This document shows, piece after piece, positions 42,086 to 44,948 of a DNA stretch of 64,000 bases. Position numbers and translations under genes: made by a program. How positions within the stretch are numbered: the stretch's first letter is position 1; each line of letters opens with the position of its first letter. Source of the DNA: Ruania suaedae (GTDB taxonomy: Bacteria > Actinomycetota > Actinomycetes > Actinomycetales > Beutenbergiaceae); NCBI RefSeq assembly GCF_021049265.1, contig NZ_CP088018.1, positions 1,054,001-1,118,000 of the forward strand, written 5' to 3'. The notes beneath the pieces are model-generated. The model made no database searches. It was given only the letters and a program-made list of their open reading frames with translations, and was not told the origin of the DNA.

Positions 42086-44143
42086 ATGACAGACCCCGAT
42101 CAGCTCCTCGAGGCGCTCGACCCCGACCAGCGCACCGTGGCCGAACAGCTCACCGGCCCGGTATGCGTGCTCGCGGGCGCCGGGACGGGCAAGACCCGCG
42201 CCGTCACCTACCGGATCGCCCACGGGGTCCGTACCGGTGTGTACAACCCGCAGACGGTGCTGGCGGTGACGTTCACCGCTCGCGCGGCCGGGGAGATGCG
42301 GACCCGGCTGCGTGACCTCGGCGTGCCGGGCGTGCAGGCCCGCACCTTCCATGCCGCAGCGCTGCGGCAGCTGTCCTACTTCTGGCCCAGTGCCATCGGT
42401 GGCGGGGTGCCGCGCATCATGGAGCACAAGGCCCCGTTGATCGGCGAGGCAGCCGGACGCCTGGGCATGTCGGTGGACCGGCTGGCGATCCGCGACCTCG
42501 CGGCCGAGGTGGAGTGGGCGAAGGTCTCGCTCGTGACCGCCGACGACTACCCCCGTGCCGCCGCCGCCTCCGACCGCAGCGGGGTCGCCGGATTCGATCC
42601 CACGACGATCGCCCGGCTGCTCTCGGTCTACGAGGACGCCAAGACCGACCGCAACGTCATCGACTTCGAGGACGTGCTGCTGCTCACCGTGGGCATCCTG
42701 GCCGAGCGGGAGGACGTCGCGGACACGGTTCGCCGGCAGTACCGGCACTTCGTGGTGGATGAGTTCCAGGACGTCTCGCCGCTGCAGCACCGGCTGCTGG
42801 AACTGTGGCTCGGCGGCCGGGACGACCTGTGCGTGGTGGGGGACGCCGCCCAGACCATCTACTCGTTCACCGGAGCCACCGCGCGGTACCTGACGGAGTT
42901 CTCCCGGCGGTACCCGAGCGCGACCGTGGTCCGGCTGGTGCGCGACTACCGATCGACTCCGCAGGTGGTCTCGCTGGCCAACTCCATGCTGGCCGGGGCG
43001 GGCCGGTTCCGCTCCAGCGCCTCCGTCGACCTGCAGGCGCAACGGCCCTCCGGCCCCGCGGTGCGGTTCGTGGCCCACGATGACGACGAGTCCGAGGCCG
43101 GTGCCGTGGCGGCGCGTGCCGCCGAGCTCATCCGCAGCGGCACCCCCGCCGGCGAGATCGCCGTGCTGTACCGCACGAACGCCCAGTCCGAGGCCTACGA
43201 GCAGGCCCTCAGCCGCGCGGGGATCGGGTACCTGGTCCGCGGCGGTGAACGCTTCTTCTCCCGCAAGGAGGTGCGTGACGCCGTCGTGCTCCTGCGCGGT
43301 GCGGTGCGCAGCCAGGGCGAGACACCGCTGCCGGAGGCGGTGCGGGACGTGCTCACGAGCGCCGGATGGGCGCCGGAGCCACCGGCGGCGCGGGGGGCCG
43401 TGCGCGAACGGTGGGAGTCGCTGAACGCCCTGGTGCAGCTGGCCGACGACCTGCACACCACGCGCGGGGCCGACATGGGCGGGCTGGTCGCCGAGCTGAC
43501 GGAGCGGGCCGCGGCCCAGCACGCGCCGATGGTCGACGGCGTCACTCTCGCCTCGCTGCACGCTGCGAAGGGCCTGGAGTGGGATGCCGTCTTCCTGGTC
43601 GGCGTCTCCGACGGACTGCTGCCGATCTCCATGGCCGAGACCGAGGACGCGATCGCCGAGGAGCGGCGCCTGCTGTACGTGGGCATCACCCGTGCCCGGG
43701 AGCACCTCGAGCTCTCCTTCTCGCGCTCCCGCAATGCGGGTGGGCGGGGCAGCCGGCGACCGTCCCGGTTCCTCGACGGCATCTGGCCCAGCGACGAGCG
43801 CCCGCCGCGGCGCCGGCGCGGCAAGGCGGCCCGGGCCGAGGCACTGGCCTCCTCGCTCACCCTGGAGGATGCCGACCCCGAGGTCTTCGAGCGCCTGCGG
43901 GTCTGGCGCGCCGCGACCGCTCAGGAGCTGGACAAACCGGCGTTCACGGTCCTGCATGACAGCACCCTCGTGGCGATCGCCGCCGCGCGGCCCACCCACA
44001 TGCGTCAGCTCGCCATCCTGCGTGGGATCGGGCCGACCAAGCTGGAGGCCTACGGCGCCCAGATCCTCGCCGTCGTGCGCGGCGATGCACCGAGCCAGGC
44101 CACTGCCCAGGGGTCGGTGGCGGGTGCTGAGAAAGAAATCTGA
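42086..44143 (+). CDS. uvrD2: UvrD2-type DNA helicase with HRDC domain
   Basis: Superfamily 1A 3'-5' DNA helicase (685 residues). Walker A is AGAGTGKT (residues 30-37), FTARAAGEM is motif Ia, VVDEFQDVSPLQ Walker B, GDAAQTIYSFTGA motif III, SLHAAKGLEWD motif V, and YVGITRAREHL motif VI. A C-terminal HRDC domain (VFERLRVWR to LEAYGAQILAVV) identifies the UvrD2 branch. Mycobacterial UvrD2 has a tetracysteine motif between the motor and HRDC; the linker here is short, Arg-rich and has no cysteine. The next gene, whiB7, has its promoter starting 11 bases after this stop. Actinobacterial order conserved. Confidence 0.94.
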   Translation: MTDPDQLLEALDPDQRTVAEQLTGPVCVLAGAGTGKTRAVTYRIAHGVRTGVYNPQTVLAVTFTARAAGEMRTRLRDLGVPGVQARTFHAAALRQLSYFWPSAIGGGVPRIMEHKAPLIGEAAGRLGMSVDRLAIRDLAAEVEWAKVSLVTADDYPRAAAASDRSGVAGFDPTTIARLLSVYEDAKTDRNVIDFEDVLLLTVGILAEREDVADTVRRQYRHFVVDEFQDVSPLQHRLLELWLGGRDDLCVVGDAAQTIYSFTGATARYLTEFSRRYPSATVVRLVRDYRSTPQVVSLANSMLAGAGRFRSSASVDLQAQRPSGPAVRFVAHDDDESEAGAVAARAAELIRSGTPAGEIAVLYRTNAQSEAYEQALSRAGIGYLVRGGERFFSRKEVRDAVVLLRGAVRSQGETPLPEAVRDVLTSAGWAPEPPAARGAVRERWESLNALVQLADDLHTTRGADMGGLVAELTERAAAQHAPMVDGVTLASLHAAKGLEWDAVFLVGVSDGLLPISMAETEDAIAEERRLLYVGITRAREHLELSFSRSRNAGGRGSRRPSRFLDGIWPSDERPPRRRRGKAARAEALASSLTLEDADPEVFERLRVWRAATAQELDKPAFTVLHDSTLVAIAAARPTHMRQLAILRGIGPTKLEAYGAQILAVVRGDAPSQATAQGSVAGAEKEI

Positions 44144-44153
44144 AGAAAGTTCG

Positions 44154-44191
44154 AAAAAAGACTTGGGCGGCCGGGGAGGTCGTCGTAGTGT
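44154..44191 (+). promoter_or_regulatory. whiB7 promoter with AT-rich WhiB7 site
   Basis: AAAAAA (44154-44159), three bases, -35 TTGGGC (44163-44168), an exact 17-nt spacer, and -10 TAGTGT (44186-44191). An AT-rich block just upstream of the -35 is the known arrangement at WhiB7-activated, SigA-dependent promoters, so autoregulation is likely. The surrounding AT-rich run (44131-44160) stands out strongly from the local base composition. Confidence 0.75.
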
Positions 44192-44267
44192 GAAGCCCGT
44201 TCGAGACCAACTGAGCCGCCGCCCAGCCAGCGAGAAGCGGTTCCACGAGCCTGAGGAGGTGAACGCA

Positions 44268-44444
44268 GTGGAGATGAAGAACCTGATCTGCACGCCGGCG
44301 ATCGGCGTCCGCATCAGCGGCACCCGCGCGTTCACCATGGCGCGCCTGCGTGCTGTTGCCGGCCCGATCGGAGGGGCTGCCACCGCTGCCGGTGGCACCT
44401 CGACCGGCGTGCCCGCCCCCGGTTCCGCACCAGATCTGACCTGA
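44268..44444 (+). CDS. whiB7 leader peptide (upstream ORF)
   Basis: A 58-codon ORF between the whiB7 promoter and its attenuator. GTG 44268 (or ATG 44274) is preceded by AGGAGG (44254-44259) at 8 nt, one of the best ribosome-binding sites in the window. The peptide is basic in the first half (MKNLICTPAIGVRISGTRA) and Gly/Ala/Pro/Thr-rich in the second; the TGA lies 18 bases before the terminator stem. In other actinobacteria an upstream ORF lets antibiotic-stalled ribosomes prevent terminator formation and switch on whiB7. The same role is inferred here. It is longer than the very short uORFs described in mycobacteria. Confidence 0.75.
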   Translation: MEMKNLICTPAIGVRISGTRAFTMARLRAVAGPIGGAATAAGGTSTGVPAPGSAPDLT

Positions 44445-44465
44445 CACCAGCTGTCACAGATCAGG
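44440..44465 (+). promoter_or_regulatory. hairpin overlapping the uORF stop, possible antiterminator partner
   Basis: Nested inverted repeats: CCTGA (44440-44444) with TCAGG (44461-44465), and TGACA (44442-44446) with TGTCA (44452-44456). The outer right arm overlaps the left arm of the terminator (44463-44472), so the two structures compete. That is the layout expected for ribosome-controlled attenuation. Confidence 0.45.
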
Positions 44466-44494
44466 CCGCGGAGCCCAGCACGGGTCCGCGGCCT
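44463..44494 (+). terminator. whiB7 attenuator terminator
   Basis: A perfect 10-bp GC-rich stem (AGGCCGCGGA 44463-44472 with TCCGCGGCCT 44485-44494) followed by TTGCTCGT. It lies between the uORF stop and whiB7, so transcription should end here unless the leader folds differently. Confidence 0.75.
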
Positions 44495-44574
44495 TGCTCG
44501 TCCCTCGAGGATCTCCTCGGCGAGTGATGCCCGGTCCCATCCCCGGCTCACCCACCATGCCTCAGGAGCATCTC

Positions 44575-44943
44575 GTGCAGTACACCTCAGTTCTCGACCA
44601 TCAATCGCGCGGTGGCTCGGCGACTGCTTGGAGCTTCCCGTCCAGTCCCGTCGATCTGACCACCACCGACGACCAACCCCTGCCCTGCCAGGACACCTCC
44701 ACCCAGGACCTCTGGTTCGCCGAGCGCACCGACGAGGTCGAGCACGCCAAGGCACTGTGCGCCTCCTGCCCGCTGCGGGCCGAGTGCCTCGCGGGTGCCC
44801 TCGAGCGGCGCGAGCCCTGGGGCGTGTGGGGCGGTGAGGTCTTCGTCGACGGTGAGATGGTGGCTCGCAAGCGCGGCCGTGGCCGCCCCCGCAAGAACGA
44901 CCCGTACGCGCCGCCCCCCTCACGCAGTACCTCTGCTGCGTGA
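44575..44943 (+). CDS. whiB7: WhiB7 redox-sensitive transcriptional activator
   Basis: A 122-residue WhiB-family regulator that binds a 4Fe-4S cluster and SigA and activates intrinsic antibiotic-resistance genes. Cluster cysteines are Cys38, Cys62, Cys65 and Cys71 (LCASCPLRAEC). The GVWGGE turn follows, then the AT-hook RGRGRPRK (residues 100-107) that marks WhiB7 among Wbl proteins. GTG 44575 has AGGAG at 6 nt. Longer in-frame starts would run into the attenuator and are rejected. It is controlled by its own AT-rich promoter and by the leader attenuator. A strong hairpin is formed by the last codons of the gene itself. Confidence 0.95.
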   Translation: MQYTSVLDHQSRGGSATAWSFPSSPVDLTTTDDQPLPCQDTSTQDLWFAERTDEVEHAKALCASCPLRAECLAGALERREPWGVWGGEVFVDGEMVARKRGRGRPRKNDPYAPPPSRSTSAA

Positions 44944-44948
44944 GGGGG
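44915..44948 (+). terminator. hairpin terminator overlapping the end of whiB7
   Basis: A perfect 13-bp stem (CCCCCTCACGCAG 44915-44927 with CTGCGTGAGGGGG 44936-44948) and an 8-nt loop. The TGA stop of whiB7 lies in the right arm. It could also stop transcripts from the convergent rhmD side. Confidence 0.7.

Follow-up and report, generated by a model that had tools for sequence, protein, structure and literature searches.

The window (the whole stretch of 64,000 nt of Ruania suaedae DNA that was analysed, to which all positions refer) contains the whiB7 locus of a single-contig genome of 3.56 Mb. whiB7 is a master antibiotic-resistance gene and a basis of the intrinsic drug tolerance of mycobacteria and other actinomycetes. 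Here it is the next gene downstream of uvrD2, coding for a UvrD-type helicase, which ends at 44143; UvrD2-like tails 5′ of whiB7 are also seen in other actinomycetes. The features of the leader and the gene are collected in Table 1. The promoter, the Shine-Dalgarno (SD) sites, the uORF, the hairpin over its stop codon, the 10-bp terminator and the whiB7 start had all been placed by an earlier sequence-only reading, and every one of these coordinates was confirmed letter by letter.

Table 1. Features of the whiB7 leader and gene in the window.
Feature	Position	Strand	Evidence
WhiB7-type promoter, putatively autoregulated (A-rich box GAAAAAA, -35 TTGGGC, -10 TAGTGT)	44153..44191	+	sequence; related leaders arranged alike
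uORF Shine-Dalgarno AGGAGG, 8 nt before GTG	44254..44259	+	sequence; SD precedes the uORF in all Ruania
uORF, 58 codons, start GTG 44268 (alternative ATG 44274)	44268..44444	+	start, stop and frame kept in eight Ruania
Arg26-Leu27-Arg28, +X+ tripeptide upstream of the antiterminator arm; proposed macrolide/ketolide stall with Leu27 in the P site	44343..44351	+	motif enrichment; RLR arrest in ErmDL
Hairpin P1, 8 bp, inside the uORF downstream of the RLR codons and upstream of arm A	44378..44397	+	-14.1 kcal/mol, z -2.8
Arm A of the antiterminator, GGUUCCGC, within the uORF codons PGSA	44421..44428	+	fold; conserved, with C-G replaced by U-A
Hairpin over the uORF stop codon, inside A:B	44433..44462	+	-11.2 kcal/mol
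Terminator, 10-bp stem with inner CCC/GGG; 5′ side includes arm B	44463..44494	+	97% of cells paired (14 leaders)
Antiterminator arm B, GCGGAGCC	44468..44475	+	pairs with arm A, 44421-44428
whiB7 Shine-Dalgarno AGGAG, 6 nt before GTG 44575	44564..44568	+	sequence
whiB7, 122 aa	44575..44943	+	Pfam Whib; orthologues in 247/297 genomes of the class

The -35 (44163-44168) and -10 (44186-44191) elements are 17 nt apart. The A-rich box at 44153-44159, 4 nt upstream of TTGGGC, resembles, as an inexact match, the GAAAWY of the WblC box, which was described 3 nt upstream of the -35 (PMC7157823). The pattern GAAAAANNNNTTGG-N18..20-TANNNT occurs a single time in the genome, at the whiB7 promoter.

Orthologues of whiB7 within Ruania reach identities of up to 87%, and the first codon of the uORF is GTG or ATG across the eight Ruania. 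NCBIfam gave no name to either WhiB7 or the uORF, and Rfam covariance models gave no match over the leader at E ≤ 1. A second WhiB7-like gene was found in some relatives, two Ruania species among them (G002:C2:201172-201399, G007:C246:4271-4501 and G009:C1:2108748-2108975). Across the whiB7 stop codon, at 44914-44948, lies a strong hairpin, CCCCCCTCACGCAG-TACCT-CTGCTGCGTGAGGGGG, probably the 3′ terminator of whiB7; other Ruania have a comparable inverted repeat.

Antiterminator and terminator

The arms of the terminator stem, AGGCCGCGGA at 44463-44472 and UCCGCGGCCU at 44485-44494, share positions 44468-44472 with the antiterminator, which makes the two structures mutually exclusive, and arm A of the antiterminator lies inside the uORF. 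These folds exceed chance: z = -5.2 was obtained for the whole leader, -6.0 for A:B together with the stop hairpin (-29.1 kcal/mol) and -2.0 for the terminator core (-18.4 kcal/mol). With one leader per genus from 84 genera, both terminator strength (p = 1e-14) and A:B complementarity (p = 5e-9) were greater than in shuffled controls.

Both stems are kept in relatives. In 14 aligned leaders of Ruania and sister genera, three pairs of the terminator stem have undergone compensatory changes on both sides. The core of the antiterminator is nearly invariant, one C-G pair being replaced by U-A in three species and by U-G in one. Arm B is evidently tied to both of its partners, since arm A compensates for the C-G to U-A change in B, and arm C for a G to A change at another site of B (three species). 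The attenuation reading of this leader had been staked on the uORF and the pairing recurring in close relatives; they do recur, and the reading, which is the established one for whiB7/wblC, holds.

The U-tract after the terminator stem (UUGCUCGUC) is weak, as would be expected if the hairpins did not form an intrinsic terminator and instead gated the whiB7 ribosome site (translation attenuation) or the access of Rho. We consider this very improbable, as the conserved, covarying stem and its overlap with the antiterminator agree with the intrinsic terminator described for whiB7 (PMC4128351, PMC10727445), and the SD of whiB7 lies 70 nt beyond it.

The switch was also followed by folding the leader length by length. 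With RNA polymerase at 44475-44490 and the ribosome stalled at RLR or absent, the predicted probability of the antiterminator exceeds 0.98, while a ribosome on the stop codon excludes it and leaves the terminator at 0.94-0.96. Once the full stem has been transcribed (44494), the equilibrium favours the terminator; folded at equilibrium up to 44500, the leader prefers it despite a ribosome stalled upstream. Only the length-by-length series reveals the interval of antiterminator dominance, and the choice between the two stems must therefore be kinetic.

Hairpin P1 may serve as a pause hairpin. Several of its pairs have changed on both sides in relatives, yet only ~61% of cells are paired across the family; it is attractive in several Ruania and inconsistent in the family at large.

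The uORF peptide and the +X+ tripeptide

uORFs were called in 162 leaders by one rule, using only the SD and position. Their median length is 65 codons (range 29-119) and the eight Ruania uORFs have 56-59, so the 58 codons of R. suaedae, thought unusually long from its sequence, fall below the class median, and length was rejected as a special feature. The peptide and the stems had also been called distinct. This is true of the peptide, which drifts: NG86 dN and dS are similar in four Ruania species, with dN/dS about 0.8-1.6. It is not true of the stems, which are common to the family. The conservation of the peptide end (PGS.P.L) is expected from RNA pairing because of its overlap with arm A; the Gly/Ala/Pro/Thr-rich end is probably constrained as RNA. 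The suggestion that the leader may respond to particular ribosome inhibitors draws no support from this end; it does draw concrete support from the central Arg-Leu-Arg.

Arg26-Leu27-Arg28 is a case of +X+ (Arg/Lys-X-Arg/Lys). The motif was counted in a single uORF from each genus, excluding the start and the final five codons, and was present in 69 of 84 genera against 39.1 ± 4.1 expected when residues were shuffled within peptides (0/1000), genera of one family being not fully independent. By the same shuffling, the residue spacings 0 and 2 to 5 gave no excess in the 84 genera. In 50 random redraws of the genus representatives, 69-74 genera carried +X+. RLR alone was found in 19 genera (2.6 expected), RPR in 9 (2.7) and RER in 7 (0.9), and Leu, Val and Glu are over-represented at X. 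The unchanged rule was then applied to a hold-out set drawn from 60 further leaders: +X+ occurred in 33 of 37 unseen genera against 16.5 ± 2.7 (0/2000), the other spacings again being without enrichment.

Within Ruania, all eight species have +X+, at two positions of the peptide, as RLR or RPR around codon 26 (five species) and as RVR, RLR or RER around codon 15 (three species). The median position in the class is 25 codons before the stop. Kribbella (loci L054-L108) has +X+ in only 3 of 22 uORFs, and Lys/Arg-Pro in 21 of 22.

The drift of the peptide, together with the lack of +X+ in roughly one of every eight to ten genera and the response of whiB7 to many inhibitors as well as to starvation for amino acids (PMC11550727, PMC12121999), would also suit a sequence-neutral speed sensor, that is, an attenuator opened by any slow or absent ribosome, in which +X+ has no special part. 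This would leave unexplained the spacing- and phase-specific excess of +X+ in both the discovery and the hold-out sets and the retention of the motif despite its moving within the peptide, and we regard it as unlikely, though deserving of serious consideration.

Control sequences temper the +X+ enrichment. For pieces of upstream coding sequence the gap-1 ratio was 1.07, and short ORFs with an SD from other parts of these loci (6-15% Arg+Lys) had a mild gap-1 excess of their own (ratio 1.28), with RLR at expectation. The uORFs exceeded these matched control ORFs: +X+ was found in 102/121 uORFs vs 89/152 (p = 5e-6) and RLR in 23/121 vs 5/152 (p = 3e-5).

It was also considered whether Arg-X-Arg only reflects a motif at the nucleotide or RNA level, CG-N4-CG, the peptide being irrelevant. 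R.R does drive most of the discovery signal, mixed R.K/K.R being not in excess there, and a weaker gap-1 excess appears in antisense frame 1. Nevertheless, the latter is expected, CG being self-complementary, and many RxK/KxR occur in the hold-out set. A spacing-specific CG-N4-CG excess exists in codon phase 0 alone (z 8.2); phase 1 is flat and phase 2 is raised equally at all spacings. Several Arg codons as well as AAG are used, and the enrichment of Leu and Glu at X also argues against such a by-product, to which we attach hardly any credence.

Two other motifs were seen. X+P ([RK]P), listed among the erythromycin arrest motifs (PMC8298421), was enriched in the discovery set (48 vs 33.7 expected) and was not enriched in the hold-out (17 vs 13.9 expected), so it remains weak. 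PW is enriched in both sets, many instances belonging to a PWSPP stretch close to the stop, and this enrichment may be RNA-driven.

Proposed stall and known leaders

The locus is an ordinary member of the known whiB7/wblC class of uORF attenuators, whose architecture and mechanism are established (PMC11550727, PMC10727445, PMC4128351); what appears to be new here is the class-wide +X+ motif. The attenuators of Mycobacterium and Streptomyces (Burian & Thompson 2018; Lee, Lee & Roe 2022; via PMC11550727, PMC10727445, PMC4128351) share with it the gene, the long leader with an SD-led uORF, the WhiB7-type promoter, and a terminator and antiterminator using overlapping uORF/terminator sequence, whereas the peptide and stem sequences differ. 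Their uORFs also carry +X+. No report of a +X+ constraint in whiB7 uORFs was found in the papers searched, Lee et al. 2022 not being among them. Antibiotic stalling inside a whiB7 uORF was stated in 2025 to be not yet tested (PMC12121999).

We put at roughly 0.7 the probability that the leader is a ribosome-mediated transcription attenuator of whiB7 with a partly programmed stall at +X+. During unhindered translation, a ribosome at the uORF stop would cover arm A and leave B free to pair with C, with termination near 44495-44505. When the ribosome is stalled further upstream or has never started, A:B would form first and RNA polymerase would read through into whiB7, whose product is expected to activate the whiB7 promoter as well. 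Macrolide- or ketolide-bound ribosomes are predicted to arrest at Arg26-Leu27-Arg28 with Leu27 (44346-44348) in the P site, ~75 nt upstream of arm A, which would be left free; as the downstream edge of the stalled ribosome would be at ~44361 (assumed footprint), 60 nt before arm A, A:B could form. Other inhibitors and starvation would stall ribosomes elsewhere in the uORF, anywhere upstream of A, which fits the broad induction of whiB7. The sequences show the anatomy, its conservation, the covariation of the terminator and the enrichment of +X+; from these we infer drug-dependent stalling, readthrough and autoactivation for R. suaedae.

The biochemistry of +X+ is consistent with this proposition. 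The motif makes up most of the strongest ketolide arrest sites, erythromycin also arrests there, and in ErmDL the P site of the halted ribosome holds the Leu of RLR (PMC8298421). RLR has been described as a signature of the leader peptides of macrolide resistance and is present in the Listeria hflXr attenuator (PMC6310831). The uORF of R. suaedae would therefore be a general sensor of slow translation that probably also has a programmed stall site for macrolides/ketolides. For the Actinomycetes as a whole, it seems likely that whiB7 uORFs have been selected for a +X+ arrest site, often RLR, acting as a dedicated macrolide/ketolide detector that is mobile in a drifting peptide. The conserved +X+ would then name a candidate codon for drug recognition and predict that macrolides and ketolides act differently from other inhibitors, and the sensor peptide would be one in which a mobile tripeptide is the only evident coding constraint.

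Three known leaders invite comparison. ErmDL-type macrolide leader peptides (PMC8298421) share an Arg-Leu-Arg in a regulatory leader peptide and the stall with Leu in the P site, which is predicted here; ErmDL, however, is a short peptide that regulates the translation of a methyltransferase, whereas the RLR of R. suaedae is found far inside a uORF of 58 codons, and the response would be transcription readthrough of a regulator. The hflXr (lmo0762/rli80) attenuator of Listeria (PMC6310831) likewise combines an RLR uORF with a terminator/antiterminator switch, but its uORF has 14 aa, belongs to Firmicutes, controls a resistance effector and is unrelated in sequence. The toiL uORF of E. coli topAI (PMC12121999) is a single uORF that senses several classes of ribosome inhibitors through stalls at different codons, as proposed here, but it works through Rho and translation control in a toxin-antitoxin operon.

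In one genus, inferred to be mycobacteria (g41, family f22; loci L198-L200 and L203), the uORFs stand out for their high alanine content and have QRKRR or a similar sequence at the end, a feature of possible relevance to the response to alanine starvation reported for whiB7 of mycobacteria.
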